The translations under genes and the position numbers were made by a program. Shown piece by piece: positions 4,800 to 11,061 of a stretch of DNA of 64,000 nt. This DNA comes from Subtercola sp. PAMC28395 (GTDB lineage Bacteria > Actinomycetota > Actinomycetes > Actinomycetales > Microbacteriaceae): positions 434,001 through 498,000 of the forward strand of contig NZ_CP076547.1 in assembly GCF_018889995.1 (NCBI RefSeq), given 5' to 3'. Under the pieces are notes generated by a model. It was not told where the DNA came from, did no database searches, and was given only the letters and a program-made list of their open reading frames with translations. Positions within the stretch are counted from its first letter, which is position 1; each line of letters opens with the position of its first letter.

Positions 4800-5528
4800 A
4801 TGAGCGGGAACGATCGCGAGGCGTACCTTCTCGCACACAGTGAACTTTCGCGCGCACACGAAGGAGACGGCAAGGCGAGCCTCTGCCGGCCATTCCTGCG
4901 GGTCGTGCCCGTCACAGGCGCGGCAGTGTCGACGATCGGCAGCGGTCGCCTCGGCACCTCCACCATCTGCGCGACCGACCCCAAGGCCATTGTGATCGAC
5001 GAACTGCAGATCGACCTCGGCGAGGGCCCCTGCTGGCAGGCGCTACGGACGGGGGCGCCGGTACTCTCCCCGAGTTTCGCGCTCACCGAGCATCCGGCCT
5101 GGCCCGTCTTCGCCAAAGCACTCCGCGAGTACGAGATCGGTGCGCTCTTCGCCTTTCCGCTGACGCTGGGCGGGCTCGACGTGGGGTCGATCGACCTGTA
5201 CTCGCACGAACCACTCACGCTGTCCGAGACCGAGGTCTCCGACGTGGTCTCTCTTACCGAGATAGCGGCCTGGCAGGTCTTGCGCAGAGTACTGGCCGAC
5301 GATTCGGTGAACATCGCCGACGTCGACAGCGACCCGAGCCCTGGCTTCTCGCGCAAGCAGGTTCACCAGGCAACCGGGATGATCATCGCCCAGTTGGAGG
5401 TCTCGTCAACAGATGCCCTCCTCCTGCTGCGAGCGCACGCCTTCGCATCGGGGCGGAGCGTGCGCGAAGTCGCCCACGATGTGGTCTCACGCCGTCTCGA
5501 TTTCACCCACGACCGAGCGCAGCCGTAG
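4800..5528 (+). CDS. GAF-ANTAR domain regulator (first of a pair)
   Basis: The protein has 242 aa. A GAF sensor domain spans roughly residues 35-165 (the LGEGPCWQA and PVLSPSF segments are typical of actinobacterial GAF-ANTAR proteins). A C-terminal ANTAR three-helix domain occupies about 180-235, with the signature QATGMIIAQLEVSSTDALLLLR. ANTAR domains bind paired hexaloop hairpins in nascent RNA and prevent termination. The ligand is unknown; GAF domains bind small molecules or respond to light or redox. No transmembrane segment, so cytosolic. It lies 15 bp after the 34-aa peptide and 17 bp before the second GAF-ANTAR gene, so the three probably form one transcript. Confidence 0.9.
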   Translation: MSGNDREAYLLAHSELSRAHEGDGKASLCRPFLRVVPVTGAAVSTIGSGRLGTSTICATDPKAIVIDELQIDLGEGPCWQALRTGAPVLSPSFALTEHPAWPVFAKALREYEIGALFAFPLTLGGLDVGSIDLYSHEPLTLSETEVSDVVSLTEIAAWQVLRRVLADDSVNIADVDSDPSPGFSRKQVHQATGMIIAQLEVSSTDALLLLRAHAFASGRSVREVAHDVVSRRLDFTHDRAQP

Positions 5529-5545
5529 AGAGGGGTGAGTCCGTC

Positions 5546-6256
5546 ATGACGGAATCCCGAGAAGGACTGCTCGCAGCCTCATTTGTTTCGCTCGCCGATA
5601 CTCTCGTCGTCGGCTACGACGTCGTCGATCTGATGCAGACGCTGGTCGACACCTGTGCGACCGTGCTCCACGCTGCCGCAGTAGGCCTGCTGCTGGCCGA
5701 CGAGAACGGGGTCCTCGAAGTGATGGCCTCGACCAGCGAACGAAGTCGACTGCTCGAGATCCTCCAGCTCCGGGCCGGTCTCGGACCCTGTGTCGAGTGC
5801 TACCTCACCGGCAAAGTCGTCGAGGTTCCCGACATCCGTGAGATCCGGCCGGACTGGTTCGCCTTTCGCGACGGTGCTCTCGACCTCGGCTTTCTCTCGG
5901 TGCATGCCGTTCCGCTTCGCCTGCGTGGTTTCACAATGGGGGCGCTGAACCTCTTCAGCGACGCCACCGGCGAACTGAACGAGACCGACGCCGCCGCCGC
6001 GCAGGCGCTCGCCGACATGGCCACGATCGGCATCGTGCACGAGCGTGCTCTCCGCCAGAGCGAAGACACCCGCGAGCAGCTCCAGCGAGCGCTCGACAGC
6101 AGGGTTGTCATCGAACAGGCCAAGGGTGTGGTCTCACACGTCAAGCACGTCGAGATGAACGAGGCTTTCGCTCTGATCAGGAATTATGCCCGGAACGCAC
6201 GGAGGCCGCTCAGCGAAGTCGCTGCTGACATCGTCAATCGCACGCTGACTCTCTGA
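5546..6256 (+). CDS. GAF-ANTAR domain regulator (second of a pair)
   Basis: This 236-aa protein has the same architecture as its neighbour: GAF (about residues 25-165, with LGPCVECYLTGKVVEVPDI) and ANTAR at the C terminus (VIEQAKGVVSHV... LIRNYARN... LSEVAADIV). The ANTAR core is closer to consensus than in the upstream copy. The two proteins differ enough over the GAF region that they are old paralogues rather than a recent duplication. A purine-rich GAGAGGGGTGAG lies upstream of ATG 5546. Likely function: a sensor that couples a signal to antitermination of unidentified transcripts. ANTAR proteins can act as dimers, so a heterodimer of the pair is possible, which is inference. Confidence 0.9.
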   Translation: MTESREGLLAASFVSLADTLVVGYDVVDLMQTLVDTCATVLHAAAVGLLLADENGVLEVMASTSERSRLLEILQLRAGLGPCVECYLTGKVVEVPDIREIRPDWFAFRDGALDLGFLSVHAVPLRLRGFTMGALNLFSDATGELNETDAAAAQALADMATIGIVHERALRQSEDTREQLQRALDSRVVIEQAKGVVSHVKHVEMNEAFALIRNYARNARRPLSEVAADIVNRTLTL

Positions 6257-7444: not shown

Positions 7445-8368
7445 CTACAGATCAGAACCCAGCAGGATCTGACCGGTGTCTGACGCGACGATGGAGACCG
7501 CCACGATGTCGGCCAGCTGGATGCTCGTGGTGGCGGTCGGCGTGACCTCGGTGCCGGGCCCCGCAGTCCAGGTCGCGACCTGCGTGCGTGTGCCATCGGC
7601 AGCGGTGACGACCATCGCGTACCCCCGCGAATACCCGCCCGCCTGCGGCAGGCTGGACTTCTGCCCAGAAGTCTCTTCAGGCGCGCGGGAGGCAGGGTTG
7701 CCAGCCGCCTGGCTGGCCTGGTCACTGTAGGTGCAGGTCCAGTCGATCCGGGTGCCCCACGGCAGCGGAGTGAACGAGGCCTCCGCGCTGAGCGGGCTCG
7801 GCTGAACGGAGACCAGCTGCACGTGCTCGGTGCTGGGCGACACGGGGAGTGCTGTTCCCGTCGAAGCATCGGGTAGTGCCGTTTCGGGCAGTGCCCTGCC
7901 GGGAGGTGACATGACGACCAGAAGAGTCACCACCCCTGCCGCAACGGCCACGGCCAGCCCCGCCGCAGCCCCGATTCGCAGGCGGGTCATCCTTCTGCGG
8001 CGACGTGCCCGCCCCAGAAGTCGTGGCAGCACGTCGACCGTTCCGACATCGATCGGGCCGACATCGACGGCTGTGGCATCGACCGCTGTGGAACCGGCGA
8101 TTTCGCCCTCATCGTGGATCTCGCCGCGCGTCTCGCCCGCAAGCGCTTCTTCGGCCGAGACCGACGCAAGCAACCCGGGAAGCCCGACGAGCTCACCGAC
8201 GCGCTCCCGGCAGGCCGGGCATCCGGTCAGATGCCTCTCGAAGAGCAGCCGTTCGCTCGGCGACAGCGCACCGAGAACGTAGGCTGCATCACTTTCGGCG
8301 TAGGGGTCTTCGGCGAAGTCGTACAGGTCGGGGCCCTCACGACCGCTGCCACCACCTGGCTCTGTCAT
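7445..8368 (-). CDS. Zinc-binding (ZAS) anti-sigma factor, RslA-like
   Basis: A 307-aa single-pass membrane protein. The cytosolic N terminus carries the ZAS motif H-x3-C-x2-C (His46, Cys50, Cys53 in RHLTGCPAC), which in relatives binds zinc and releases the sigma factor on oxidation. A transmembrane helix follows at about residues 127-150, then an external C-terminal domain of about 150 residues (WGTRIDWTCTYSD and a threonine-rich end). It overlaps the 3' end of the sigma gene by 4 bp, which indicates translational coupling and stoichiometric production. The layout is like SigL-RslA of mycobacteria. The external signal is unknown. Confidence 0.92.
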   Translation of the reverse strand: MTEPGGGSGREGPDLYDFAEDPYAESDAAYVLGALSPSERLLFERHLTGCPACRERVGELVGLPGLLASVSAEEALAGETRGEIHDEGEIAGSTAVDATAVDVGPIDVGTVDVLPRLLGRARRRRRMTRLRIGAAAGLAVAVAAGVVTLLVVMSPPGRALPETALPDASTGTALPVSPSTEHVQLVSVQPSPLSAEASFTPLPWGTRIDWTCTYSDQASQAAGNPASRAPEETSGQKSSLPQAGGYSRGYAMVVTAADGTRTQVATWTAGPGTEVTPTATTSIQLADIVAVSIVASDTGQILLGSDL

Positions 8369-8868
8369 CTGGTCACCCCCCGCTCCTGCAGCGCGAGCTT
8401 CACCGCACGCAGTCCGTAGTGCAGGCGTGACTTCACGGTGCCCTCTGGTATGCCGAGAAGCTGGCTCAGTTCGGCGATCGACTTCTGGCCGTAGTAGGCC
8501 TGCACCAGAACCTCACGGTGCTCCGCAGTGAGGTCGGTCAGGGCGTCGGCCACCAGCCAGGCCTGCAGCAGCTCGTCGGTGCGATCGGCACTCGCCCGTT
8601 CGGGCAGAACGTCGGTACCGATCTCGTTTCGCGACCGGGCGCTGCGGAATTCATCGATGACGAGATTGCGCGCTACCGTGAACAGCCATGCCTGCACTCC
8701 CGTGCCGGTGTTCTGGATGATCGCGGGGCTGCGCCACGCCCGAAACAGGGTCTCCTGCACCACGTCTTCTGCCCACGCCCTGTCGCCGGTCAGTCGAACG
8801 ACGAAACGGTAGAGCGCTGGGGCATGCTGGTCGTGGAGCGTGCGCAACAGCTCGGCCTGATCATCCAC
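8365..8868 (-). CDS. ECF RNA polymerase sigma factor, SigL-like
   Basis: A 167-aa sigma-70 ECF factor. Region 2 reads LYRFVVRLTGDRAWAEDVVQETLFRAW followed by FTVARNLVIDEFRS; region 4 has LTAEHREVLVQAYYGQKS and the helix-turn-helix GIPEGTVKSRLHYGLRA. The end, LQERGVTR, resembles the C terminus of mycobacterial SigL. GTG 8868 is the start, with GGAGG ten nt upstream. It is co-transcribed with the ZAS anti-sigma gene. A matching ECF promoter, TGAACT-N16-CGT, lies immediately upstream, and a second copy faces the divergent Rieske gene, so the factor probably drives its own operon and the Rieske pair. Confidence 0.95.
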   Translation of the reverse strand: MDDQAELLRTLHDQHAPALYRFVVRLTGDRAWAEDVVQETLFRAWRSPAIIQNTGTGVQAWLFTVARNLVIDEFRSARSRNEIGTDVLPERASADRTDELLQAWLVADALTDLTAEHREVLVQAYYGQKSIAELSQLLGIPEGTVKSRLHYGLRAVKLALQERGVTR

Positions 8869-8894
8869 GACTCTTCACACCTCCACCAGTACAT

Positions 8895-8919
8895 ACGAGA
8901 TGCCGGCCAAGAAAGTTCA
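8895..8919 (-). promoter_or_regulatory. ECF-type promoter of the sigma/anti-sigma operon
   Basis: Minus strand: TGAACT (8919-8914), 16-bp spacer, CGT (8897-8895). This equals the SigL-type consensus TGAAC-N16-CGT. Predicted start of transcription near 8888, giving a short leader with GGAGG. Confidence 0.75.
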
Positions 8920-8927
8920 CCCGGCGG

Positions 8928-8952
8928 TGAACCGAATGAGCCAGCGTTTCGT
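8928..8952 (+). promoter_or_regulatory. ECF-type promoter of the Rieske/DUF2231 genes
   Basis: Plus strand: TGAACC (8928-8933), 16-bp spacer, CGT (8950-8952). Same elements and spacing as the facing promoter of the sigma operon; only 8 bp separate the two -35 boxes. Confidence 0.78.
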
Positions 8953-8999
8953 AGGTACCAGTAGCAGTATGACAATTCCGCAGCCGAAGAAGGAGCCTC

Positions 9000-9455
9000 A
9001 TGTCTGAAAACACCCCCGTCACCCGCCGAGTTGTTCTCACAGCGGGGAGCGTCGGCATGCTCGGCGCGAGCGCGCTCGCCCTCTCGGCCTGCGCCCCCAC
9101 CACCTCGACCGGGGCGGCTGGCGGCACAGCTTCGACACCGGCAGCGTCGGCAGGTTCGGGGAGCGCCGGCGAGATCGCCAAGCTCGCCGATGTGCCGGTC
9201 GGCCAGGCGAAGAGCATCTCGTTCGGCGGGCAGGACATCCTGGTGGCCCAGCCCAGCGCCGGCAAGGTCGTCGCCTTCAGTTCGGTCTGCCCACACCAGG
9301 GCTGCGCCGTGGCGTTCGCGTCAAGTGACTTCGCGTGCCCCTGCCACGGCTCGACCTTCGACCTCGCGACGGGCAACGTCACCCACGGCCCCGCACAGAA
9401 GGGGCTCAGCGTCGTTGCGGTGAAGGTCGCCGGCGACGCCATCGTCGCCGGTTAG
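9000..9455 (+). CDS. Rieske [2Fe-2S] lipoprotein exported by Tat
   Basis: A 151-aa protein. The N terminus has the twin arginine (TRRVVLTAG, Arg9-Arg10) and a lipobox LSAC at Cys31, so it should be exported folded with its cluster and lipid-anchored outside the membrane. After a Ser/Ala/Gly linker, the Rieske fold carries CPHQGC and CPCHGS: both cluster ligand pairs plus the extra cysteines that form the stabilising disulfide of high-potential Rieske proteins. AAGGAG stands before ATG 9000. It is followed 9 bp later by a DUF2231 membrane protein, a likely electron partner. Not part of a cytochrome bc operon. Predicted to be controlled by the divergent ECF sigma factor. Confidence 0.93.
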   Translation: MSENTPVTRRVVLTAGSVGMLGASALALSACAPTTSTGAAGGTASTPAASAGSGSAGEIAKLADVPVGQAKSISFGGQDILVAQPSAGKVVAFSSVCPHQGCAVAFASSDFACPCHGSTFDLATGNVTHGPAQKGLSVVAVKVAGDAIVAG

Positions 9456-9464
9456 AGTACCTTC

Positions 9465-10082
9465 ATGCTGCCCTACGAGATCAACGGTCTCCCCCTCCAC
9501 ATCCTGCTCGTGCACGTGGTGGTCATCGTGGTGCCCCTCGGCGCCATCATGACCTTTCTCGGGGCAGTGTGGCCGGCATTCCGGCGCAAGCTGACATTCA
9601 TCACCCCGCTGGTGACCTTCGTCGGGCTCGCGAGCGTGCCGCTTGCCACCAATGCCGGTGAGTGGCTGCTCGCCCGGGTGAACCCCACGCCGCTCATCAC
9701 CGCGCATGCCGCCATCGGCGACACCCTCGTACCCTGGGCATTCGGCCAGTTCGTTCTGGCGACCGCGATCTGGGTCTGGTATCGCTCATTCGCCGCCCCT
9801 CCCAGCCAGCCGGAGCCCCCGACGCGCAACCTCGCCGTACCTGACGAGCGCGACCCGTTCGTGGTCGCCGAAACGACGCCTGCCGACTCTTCACCCCGTG
9901 CAGCGCGGCCCGCAGGCCGATTCGCCGGCCGGGTGAGCCGGCGGGCATCACTGGTGGTCTCGGTCGTGTTCATGGTGCTCGCACTCGCGCTCGGCACGGC
10001 GACGACGATCAGGGTCGTGCAGATCGGCGAGTCGGGTGCGGCGGCCATCTGGACGGGCTCGTTCAGCGAGACACCGAAGTAG
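9465..10082 (+). CDS. DUF2231-family four-helix membrane protein
   Basis: A 205-aa protein beginning MLPYEINGLPLHILLVHVVV, the DUF2231 pattern of an N-terminal 'GLPLHPLLVH' helix, followed by three more membrane helices (two before residue 120, one near the C terminus after a charged loop rich in Pro and Arg). Conserved histidines in helices (LHILLVH, ITAHAAIGD) could ligate haem, which is inference. In other actinobacteria DUF2231 domains are found near or fused to Rieske domains, as far as I recall, which supports a joint redox role with the upstream gene. Spacing of 9 bp suggests co-transcription. Confidence 0.85.
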   Translation: MLPYEINGLPLHILLVHVVVIVVPLGAIMTFLGAVWPAFRRKLTFITPLVTFVGLASVPLATNAGEWLLARVNPTPLITAHAAIGDTLVPWAFGQFVLATAIWVWYRSFAAPPSQPEPPTRNLAVPDERDPFVVAETTPADSSPRAARPAGRFAGRVSRRASLVVSVVFMVLALALGTATTIRVVQIGESGAAAIWTGSFSETPK

Positions 10083-10098
10083 AGGTGACGCCGAGGGC

Positions 10099-11061
10099 TC
10101 ACGCCGAGTGGGTCGCCGCCTCCCAGCCGGAGGAGATCATGTCGCGGAGAGTGTGGCGGGGCGCCCAGTCGACATCGCGCGATGCCAGCTCGCCTGAAGC
10201 GACAATGCGTGCCGGGTCACCCGGTCGGGCGGGCATGACCTCGGGAGTGAAGGCGATGCCGGTCACTCCAGCCATCTCGGTCATGATCTCGCGAACAGAG
10301 CTGCCCGACCCGCTGCCGAGGTTGTAGGCACGCTCGAGGGGCACACCGGCATCGAGCTTGCGTGCGGCAGCGACATGCGCCGCGGCGACATCGGCGACGT
10401 GCACATAGTCGCGAACACAGGTTCCGTCGGGGGTGGGATAGGTGTCACCGAAGATCTTCGGGGTCTCGCCCGCGAGAAGCGCCCTAAAGACCAGCGGGAA
10501 GAGGTTGTGCGGGCTGGTGTCGCTGACCGTCGGCGTTGCCGAACCGACGACGTTGAAGTACCGCAGGCTGGTGTGCCGGAGGCCGGTCGCCCTGGCCTGG
10601 TCGGCGATCATCCACTCGCCGATGAGCTTGGTCTCGCCATACGGCGATTCGGGGTTCGTTGCGGTCTCCTCGGTCACGAAGGCGACCGGGGTGTTTCCGT
10701 AGACCGCGGCACTCGAGGAGAACACGATCGATTCGACACCGGTGGCCGCCATCGCCTCGAGCAGGTTGACCGTGGCGGTGACGTTCTGCGTGTAGGTGTG
10801 CAACGGGCGCGTCACCGACACACCGGCGTACTTGAAGCCGGCCAGGTGAACGACGCCGCTCACCTGGTGCCGCGCGAAGACCTGGTCGACGAAGGCCCGA
10901 TCGACGAGCGAACCCTGCTCGAGCACTGCGCCCTCAGGCACGAATTCTGTGCGACCGCTCGAGAGGTCATCGATGACGACAACGTCGATACCGTTCTCGA
11001 GAAACGCCCGAGCGACGTGCGAGCCGATGTAGCCGGCCCCTCCGGTGACGATCCAGGTCAT
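10099..11061 (-). CDS. galE: UDP-glucose 4-epimerase
   Basis: This 320-aa extended short-chain dehydrogenase interconverts UDP-galactose and UDP-glucose in the Leloir pathway. The NAD site is TGGAGYIGSHVA at the N terminus; the catalytic triad is Ser/Tyr-x3-Lys, seen as FSSSAAVYG and SPYGETK; the sugar-nucleotide region contains RYFNVVGS and the C-terminal RAYNLGSGSG. Length is usual. It overlaps the start of nothing downstream but shares 4 bp with the end of galK, so the order galT-galK-galE on the minus strand is one operon. Confidence 0.97.
   Translation of the reverse strand: MTWIVTGGAGYIGSHVARAFLENGIDVVVIDDLSSGRTEFVPEGAVLEQGSLVDRAFVDQVFARHQVSGVVHLAGFKYAGVSVTRPLHTYTQNVTATVNLLEAMAATGVESIVFSSSAAVYGNTPVAFVTEETATNPESPYGETKLIGEWMIADQARATGLRHTSLRYFNVVGSATPTVSDTSPHNLFPLVFRALLAGETPKIFGDTYPTPDGTCVRDYVHVADVAAAHVAAARKLDAGVPLERAYNLGSGSGSSVREIMTEMAGVTGIAFTPEVMPARPGDPARIVASGELASRDVDWAPRHTLRDMISSGWEAATHSA

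Follow-up and report, generated by a model that had tools for sequence, protein, structure and literature searches.

A probable autoregulated SigL/RslA-type switch facing a Rieske-DUF2231 envelope operon in Subtercola

A stretch of 64,000 nucleotides from the 3.2-Mb genome of Subtercola sp. PAMC28395 (family Microbacteriaceae), hereafter the window, carries two back-to-back promoter sites between a gene pair for an extracytoplasmic function (ECF) sigma factor and its anti-sigma factor and a divergent operon for a Rieske lipoprotein and a DUF2231-type membrane protein. We consider it probable that this locus forms an autoregulated SigL/RslA-type switch, which deploys the Rieske and DUF2231 proteins as an envelope electron-transfer unit. 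Comparison with relatives revealed the two sites, their conservation, the gene linkage, and the existence of fused DUF2231-Rieske proteins. The system is broader than first claimed: a SigL/RslA-type circuit faces a few envelope targets that can replace one another, chiefly DUF2231, Rieske, and Lipoprotein_15 proteins. The kind of circuit is already known, and the target set is new.

Layout of the locus and its two promoter sites

The locus is made up of the following features:

7445..8368, minus strand: RslA-type anti-sigma factor, 307 amino acids (zf-HC2; best PDB match 3hug_B; alignment and structure model)
8365..8868, minus strand: SigL-type ECF sigma factor, 167 amino acids (Pfam Sigma70_r2/r4; PRK09645; Mycobacterium tuberculosis SigL as best PDB match)
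8895..8919, minus strand: predicted SigL-type promoter of the sigma/anti-sigma operon (-35 TGAACT, 16-nt spacer, -10 CGT(A); motif conservation)
8915..8932, no strand: inverted repeat GTTCACC-cggc-GGTGAAC made by both -35 boxes, not conserved as an operator
8928..8952, plus strand: predicted SigL-type promoter of the Rieske-DUF2231 operon (-35 TGAACC, 16-nt spacer, -10 CGT(A); motif conservation)
9000..9455, plus strand: Rieske [2Fe-2S] lipoprotein of the twin-arginine translocation (Tat) type, 151 amino acids (PF00355; signal, lipobox, and cluster motif from sequence)
9465..10082, plus strand: DUF2231-type four-helix membrane protein, 205 amino acids (alignment profile match, structure model)

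The sigma gene (8868..8365, minus strand) overlaps the anti-sigma gene (8368..7445, minus strand), the Rieske gene is divergent from both, and the DUF2231 gene follows the Rieske gene after 9 nt on the same plus strand. Translation of the sigma factor starts with GTG at 8868, preceded by GGAGGTG, and that of the Rieske protein with ATG at 9000, preceded by AAGGAG. Pfam matches uphold the zf-HC2 anti-sigma, ECF sigma, and Rieske gene calls of the original prediction. The two promoter sites are likewise present exactly as it had described them, with TGAACT-N16-CGT on the minus strand (8919..8895) and TGAACC-N16-CGT on the plus strand (8928..8952), an 8-bp gap between them (8920-8927), and distances of 26 nt (sigma) and 47 nt (Rieske) to the start codons. 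A consensus scan of positions 8700-10200 found no sigma-70-type promoter.

The bare 8-base pattern (TGAAC-N17-CGT) is not rare, as it occurs six times in the window against 1.9 expected. A genome scan, as had been proposed alongside the prediction, returned 203 matches, against 31 for the reversed pattern. As the pattern is this common by itself, the case rests on the placement and conservation of the sites. A stricter form, in which A or T precedes CGT and any base but C follows, has 59 genomic sites (9 and 50), of which 39 were read with their sequence. Judged by a simple rule based on open reading frames (ORFs) and GC content at third codon positions (GC3), 34 of these 39 lie inside predicted genes and five outside. 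Of these five, the two window sites alone are followed by a start codon at 20-60 nt; among the remaining three, one lies 136 nt upstream, one overlaps a start, and one has no gene.

Past the -10 box, at 8950-8964 of the window, CGTARRTACNNGTAG is retained in the Rieske promoter at 11 of the 12 Subtercola loci as judged by eye, and the sigma promoter resembles it there in some of these loci. Extended -10 or start-region recognition is a possible meaning of this shared stretch.

Conservation of the promoter pair among relatives

Sixty genomes were searched with the Rieske protein, and loci were retrieved from the 30 best. A sigma gene is also found at 17 of the 30 loci and is divergent from the Rieske gene at 15, which comprise the 12 Subtercola genomes of the set and three from other Microbacteriaceae genera. 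The original prediction had staked itself on the motif pair in orthologous loci, and both sites, with exactly N16, are present in all 15. For control, each pattern of the form 5+17+3 in the window spacer (107 per strand, 214 in total) was sought in 13 spacers, with the window and a near twin left out. Only TGAAC/CGT reaches 13/13, on each strand; the next best patterns reach 9/13 and 11/13, and most occur in none.

A wider survey covered 80 named loci encoding a DUF2231 relative (the best 80 of 532). A divergent sigma gene was found at 17 of them, six of which are already among the 15 loci above. The Rieske gene comes first in 11 of the 17 (Subtercola, Lacisediminihabitans, Leifsonia, Cryobacterium tagatosivorans, and unclassified Microbacteriaceae) and is missing in six (Microbacterium, Agromyces, Herbiconiux, and Specibacter). 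All 17 carry the sigma-side motif; the target-side motif has N16 in 13 loci, N17 in three (L111, L140, L146), and is present only with a mismatch in L074. Chance would give 0.013 motifs per 300 bp. With repeats left out, the motif precedes the sigma gene in 31/31 cases at no less than 60% identity, about 23-40 nt from the start, in 8/13 at 50-60%, and in 13/15 at 45-50%. The predicted motif-marked autoregulation with a divergent Rieske-DUF2231 operon is conserved beyond the genus, given the 15/15 divergent loci and the 31/31 sigma genes. An exact motif also lies at most 300 bp upstream of the target in 10 of 63 DUF2231 loci without a linked sigma gene, against 0.8 expected; these ten are not independent, because five belong to Arthrobacter and two to Frankia.

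At two loci from two other families of the order (L015, 934-1442; L022, 1192-1777), a different membrane protein stands in place of DUF2231. Back-to-back motifs 13 bp apart lie between this protein, which has no Pfam match, and the Rieske gene in L015, and between the other membrane protein and the sigma gene in L022.

The gap between the two -35 boxes is 8 bp in nine of the 12 Subtercola loci, 9 bp in one, and 44 bp in two; outside the genus it amounts to 8, 9, 12, 13, 14, 18, 24, or 28 bp, and to 2 bp in Microbacterium. Hexamer and CGT are separated by 16 nt at every site but the target-side ones of L111, L140, and L146, which have 17 nt. An external gap that varies from 2 to 44 bp around a near-constant internal spacing agrees with two independent ECF promoters and rules out a dimer operator as what is conserved. 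The inverted repeat could in principle bind a dimeric repressor or activator of both genes, as its arms form a perfect 7-bp repeat in the window and the 8-bp distance recurs in nine Subtercola loci. Since the distance between the TGAAC boxes takes all of the values listed above while the CGT stays in register, we regard such an operator as very improbable. That both sites are functionless chance matches is harder still to believe: the 203 genomic occurrences of the pattern would fit this explanation, and the 15/15 conservation on both strands, with internal spacing nearly constant and external spacing variable, contradicts it. At gaps of 2-8 bp, two holoenzymes would hardly bind together and the promoters probably compete, and at 44 bp they would not need to. 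These back-to-back promoters, 2 to 44 bp apart, lend themselves as a ready-made series to experiments on how two holoenzymes compete.

The regulator, its signal, and the two target proteins

The sigma protein passes the curated cut-off of PRK09645 (221.2 vs 202 bits), a model titled 'sigma-70 family RNA polymerase sigma factor', which we take to be the SigL model. Its best solved relative is M. tuberculosis SigL (6dv9, 177.7 bits); 6dxo matches over region 2 only (59.1 bits), and SigE is the next factor matched over its length (53.6 bits). The anti-sigma factor has 3hug_B, presumably the RslA chain, as its best solved relative, and the assignment as a SigL-type ECF pair is borne out by these matches. 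This is the only SigL-like sigma factor in the genome, where the next full-length matches are 25-31% identical and three others are short and partial.

A zinc motif (H46-C50-C53) and one hydrophobic helix were read from the sequence of the anti-sigma factor. Its gene adjoins the sigma gene, and Hx3CxxC is present in 31/31 anti-sigma ORFs read, two of which represent the same locus. Residues from about 178 to 307 are predicted to fold into a compact extracytoplasmic beta-domain, with a predicted local distance difference test score (pLDDT) of 95-98 for most 10-residue blocks and below 60 for one loop. Within this domain, Cys212 is invariant in a 20-member alignment. The genome also holds one match to an M50 (site-2) protease.

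Thiol oxidation or envelope stress had originally been proposed as the trigger. The Hx3CxxC motif of the RslA type is indeed kept, and oxidation makes RslA lose its zinc and form a disulphide, according to PMC2877774. Oxidation is nevertheless only one option, as zinc is thought to be structural in some anti-sigma groups of this class (according to PMC7406223), the outer beta-domain is conserved, and Rip1 cleaves RslA in M. tuberculosis (as given in PMC10449499). The modelled outer domain, together with the encoded M50 protease, makes a signal read outside the cell at least as likely. Whether such a signal acts by regulated intramembrane proteolysis instead of cytoplasmic thiol oxidation is, in our judgement, evenly balanced, with the hydrophobic helix, the predicted beta-domain with its invariant Cys212, the protease, and the cleavage by Rip1 on one side, and the oxidation chemistry of RslA and the motif retained in all 31 ORFs on the other. 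Both routes may act on the anti-sigma factor.

The Rieske protein matches PF00355 with 60.7 vs 20.3 bits and contains both cluster-ligand pairs (CPH...CPCH). A twin-arginine signal (RRVVL), a lipobox (LSAC), and the motif CPHQGC...CPCHGS with an extra cysteine pair as in the bc1-type were read from its sequence, in agreement with the exported Rieske lipoprotein of the original prediction. Two places after the cluster Ser stands a Phe, at the position where bc1 Rieske proteins have a Tyr. The high potential that the original prediction gave the protein is plausible. By model cut-offs, it does not class as a bc1/b6f Rieske subunit (49.3 vs 154, 48.9 vs 250, and 44.2 vs 275 bits). A separate Rieske match of the same genome, in a long frame (G000:C1:2305204), is likely the bc1 subunit.

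For the second target protein, the closest named relative is S. frigoramans (96%). The DUF2231 call fared less directly: the window protein itself scores below the Pfam cut-off of PF09990 (12.8 vs 26.4 bits), whereas 44 of the 56 sequences aligned with it match DUF2231 with E<=0.001, which makes it a probable, divergent member of the family. The structure model is a four-helix bundle (pLDDT 85). H12, H17, H81, G188, G191, and W196 are invariant in 56/56 sequences, E66 is present in 54, and E or D at position 189 in 56. The basic loops between helices 1-2 and 3-4 suggest that the conserved H12/H17/H81 cluster, located at the opposite ends, faces outward, towards the Rieske protein. A tentative and somewhat doubtful extension is that DUF2231 is an unrecognised membrane redox protein, in which outward H12/H17/H81 with E66 and E/D189 would bind haem, metal, or menaquinol and pass electrons to the exported Rieske protein. 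Actinomycetes would then keep the two proteins fused or split, with the split form deployed by a SigL/RslA-type switch as an envelope redox defence.

Exchange of targets, alternative explanations, and known systems

The Rieske-DUF2231 module proposed at the outset is real and recurs in relatives, but it is not fixed, as either gene can be the sole linked target or Lipoprotein_15 can replace Rieske. A Lipoprotein_15 gene adjoins the sigma genes in the six Rieske-less DUF2231 loci (L100, L111, L122, and L143 by Pfam; L140 and L146 by clustering), and the motif lies on its strand near its start in 6/6. Lipoprotein_15 is likely a further envelope target of SigL-type factors. This family (PF03640, of unknown function) also adjoins SigL-type sigma/anti-sigma genes in L087 and L163-L165. 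In L087 (2203-5447, a Microbacteriaceae metagenome-assembled genome), two tandem SigL-type sigma/anti-sigma pairs occur, one divergent from Lipoprotein_15 and one from Rieske-DUF2231.

The sigma factor was further sought in the 48 genomes behind 50 loci. In Nakamurella endophytica, the sigma gene is divergent from Rieske, each side has its motif, and so does a DUF2231 gene that is unlinked. In Jatrophihabitans, where the sigma gene adjoins Rieske, only the sigma side has the motif; a distant DUF2231 gene is preceded by it as well. Since the motif can precede both genes when they are unlinked, one type of factor can take in Rieske and DUF2231 even then. All eight Cryobacterium genomes searched encode a sigma factor of 64-67% identity, divergent from Rieske in five and with no Rieske seen adjoining in three; of the five sigma/Rieske loci, three have an exact Rieske-side motif and a fourth has a form with one mismatch. 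In Arthrobacter (L078, L082, L091, L094, L132), the motif-bearing DUF2231 gene was seen by eye between transporter-like and LigD-like DNA ligase genes.

Fifteen Rieske stretches of relatives were fetched on account of a long frame or a moderate score, and in three of them (L187, L189, L197) DUF2231 and Rieske domains share one chain. When the DUF2231 half of one fusion served as query, 109 homologues came back, 105 with both domains, which is no estimate of frequency because the query itself was a fusion and the search was limited to proteins of similar length. Such fusions, annotated as Rieske 2Fe-2S or DUF2231 domain-containing proteins, are established in several genera, including Amnibacterium, Rathayibacter, Microlunatus, and Actinomadura. 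By eye, H12 and H81 seem to have counterparts in them, and H17 not always. By analogy, DUF2231 and Rieske proteins probably cooperate in moving electrons.

In the proposed circuit, the SigL-type factor would act at both promoters beside its own gene, with the minus-strand promoter driving the sigma/anti-sigma operon, and hence autoregulation, and the plus-strand promoter driving the Rieske lipoprotein-DUF2231 operon. The RslA-type anti-sigma factor would hold the sigma factor in the resting cell. An envelope signal would release it through oxidation of the zinc-CXXC, proteolysis triggered through the outer beta-domain, or both, and the freed sigma factor would raise its own level and that of the target operon. 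The four-helix DUF2231 protein, with an outward histidine-rich cofactor or quinone site, would then exchange electrons with the exported Rieske protein. Sigma specificity, signal, cofactor, and electron transfer are inferred here; domain fusion, conserved histidines, and co-occurring motifs make electron transfer the best reading of the pair.

Several observations weigh against this circuit. His54 and Asp60 of M. tuberculosis SigL read the -10 bases T-12 and G-11 (according to PMC6372665), and alignment places Ser and Asn at these positions in the window sigma factor. The -11 base is A on both sides in 12/12 Subtercola loci, against the G given for SigL in PMC6372665. The CGTG -10 reading by His54/Asp60, taken as a SigL trait, was thus not found in the window, which has CGTA and Ser/Asn. 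The A at -11 and the changed residues point to a related, SigL-like factor whose -10 preference is probably shifted from that of M. tuberculosis SigL and which may not share its promoters. The motif is missing before five of the 13 sigma genes in the 50-60% identity range, including three from Frigoribacterium that adjoin Lipoprotein_15. No convincing Rieske-side motif was found in L118, L154, and L162, and only one-mismatch forms in L160 and L074. Where a fetched Rieske locus had no linked sigma gene (13 cases), the motif was placed before Rieske only in L018 and L023. None of 11 Cryobacterium DUF2231-only loci carries it, despite the 64-67% sigma factor in the eight of their genomes that the search covered, and Arthrobacter DUF2231 genes do carry it, yet the best sigma factor there is only 38-41% identical. 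A structural relative of the DUF2231 protein was sought, and no informative one was found. The fused Rieske domains are ferredoxin-type (CSHLSG...CPWH) and lack the second cysteine pair, so that the fusions support a partnership by analogy.

Two broader explanations bear on the same evidence. Both sites could be members of a more extensive SigL-like regulon, so that the local pair would represent one portion of a wide envelope response like that of M. tuberculosis, where SigL is said in PMC10449499 to control about 20 envelope or secreted-protein genes. The motif before unlinked DUF2231 genes (Arthrobacter, Nakamurella, Jatrophihabitans, Frankia) and before Lipoprotein_15 genes in other genera would agree with this, and reading covered 39 of the 59 strict genomic sites. 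As 34 of the 39 fall within predicted genes and, besides the window pair, none looks convincing as a promoter, we find a larger regulon rather unlikely. Slightly less likely still is that the Rieske protein serves as an outer redox or iron sensor talking to the anti-sigma ectodomain, with DUF2231 and the lipoprotein in separate roles. The varying lipoprotein partner, which is Rieske in some loci and Lipoprotein_15 in others with the same sigma/anti-sigma type, loci with Rieske as the sole linked target, the Cryobacterium DUF2231 genes without motif, and the conserved ectodomain would suit a sensor; the DUF2231-Rieske fusions and the Nakamurella motif before both unlinked genes favour a direct partnership.

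Literature searches, with the main ECF reclassification outside their scope, listed no paper on the combination of a SigL-type switch with Rieske-DUF2231. The locus provides a small two-operon model outside pathogens for asking what SigL/RslA-type switches sense. DUF2231, to which Pfam assigns no function, gains from it a partner that can be tested (Rieske), a regulator, and a predicted active-site cluster. Elsewhere in the window, at 4800-6256, two adjoining GAF-ANTAR genes are candidates for RNA-binding antiterminators with sensor domains (Pfam).

Among known systems, SigL/RslA of M. tuberculosis contains the closest solved relatives of both regulators and shares the promoter type beside the sigma gene, the Hx3CxxC motif, and a membrane-associated anti-sigma factor. 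It differs in its targets, which are cell-wall, polyketide, and secreted-protein genes as far as the sources name them, in the G at -11 reported there against A in Subtercola, and in the residues reading -12 and -11. The Rieske subunits of bc1/b6f and arsenite oxidase are akin in sequence, with CxHxGC...CPCHGS and the extra cysteine pair, whereas the window protein is a stand-alone lipoprotein of 151 amino acids far below the family cut-offs (best 49.3 vs 154). Compared with bc1/b6f, no cytochrome b gene is present at the window locus and Phe replaces the Tyr. The DUF2231-Rieske fusion proteins combine the same two domains in one chain with a ferredoxin-type Rieske domain; in the window, the Rieske protein stands alone as a Tat-type lipoprotein, and the genes for both proteins have an ECF-type promoter. 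The envelope repair system MsrPQ, which is stress-induced and pairs a Tat-exported redox protein with a small multi-helix membrane partner, may work in a similar way; the likeness is one of function only, with no molybdenum protein here.
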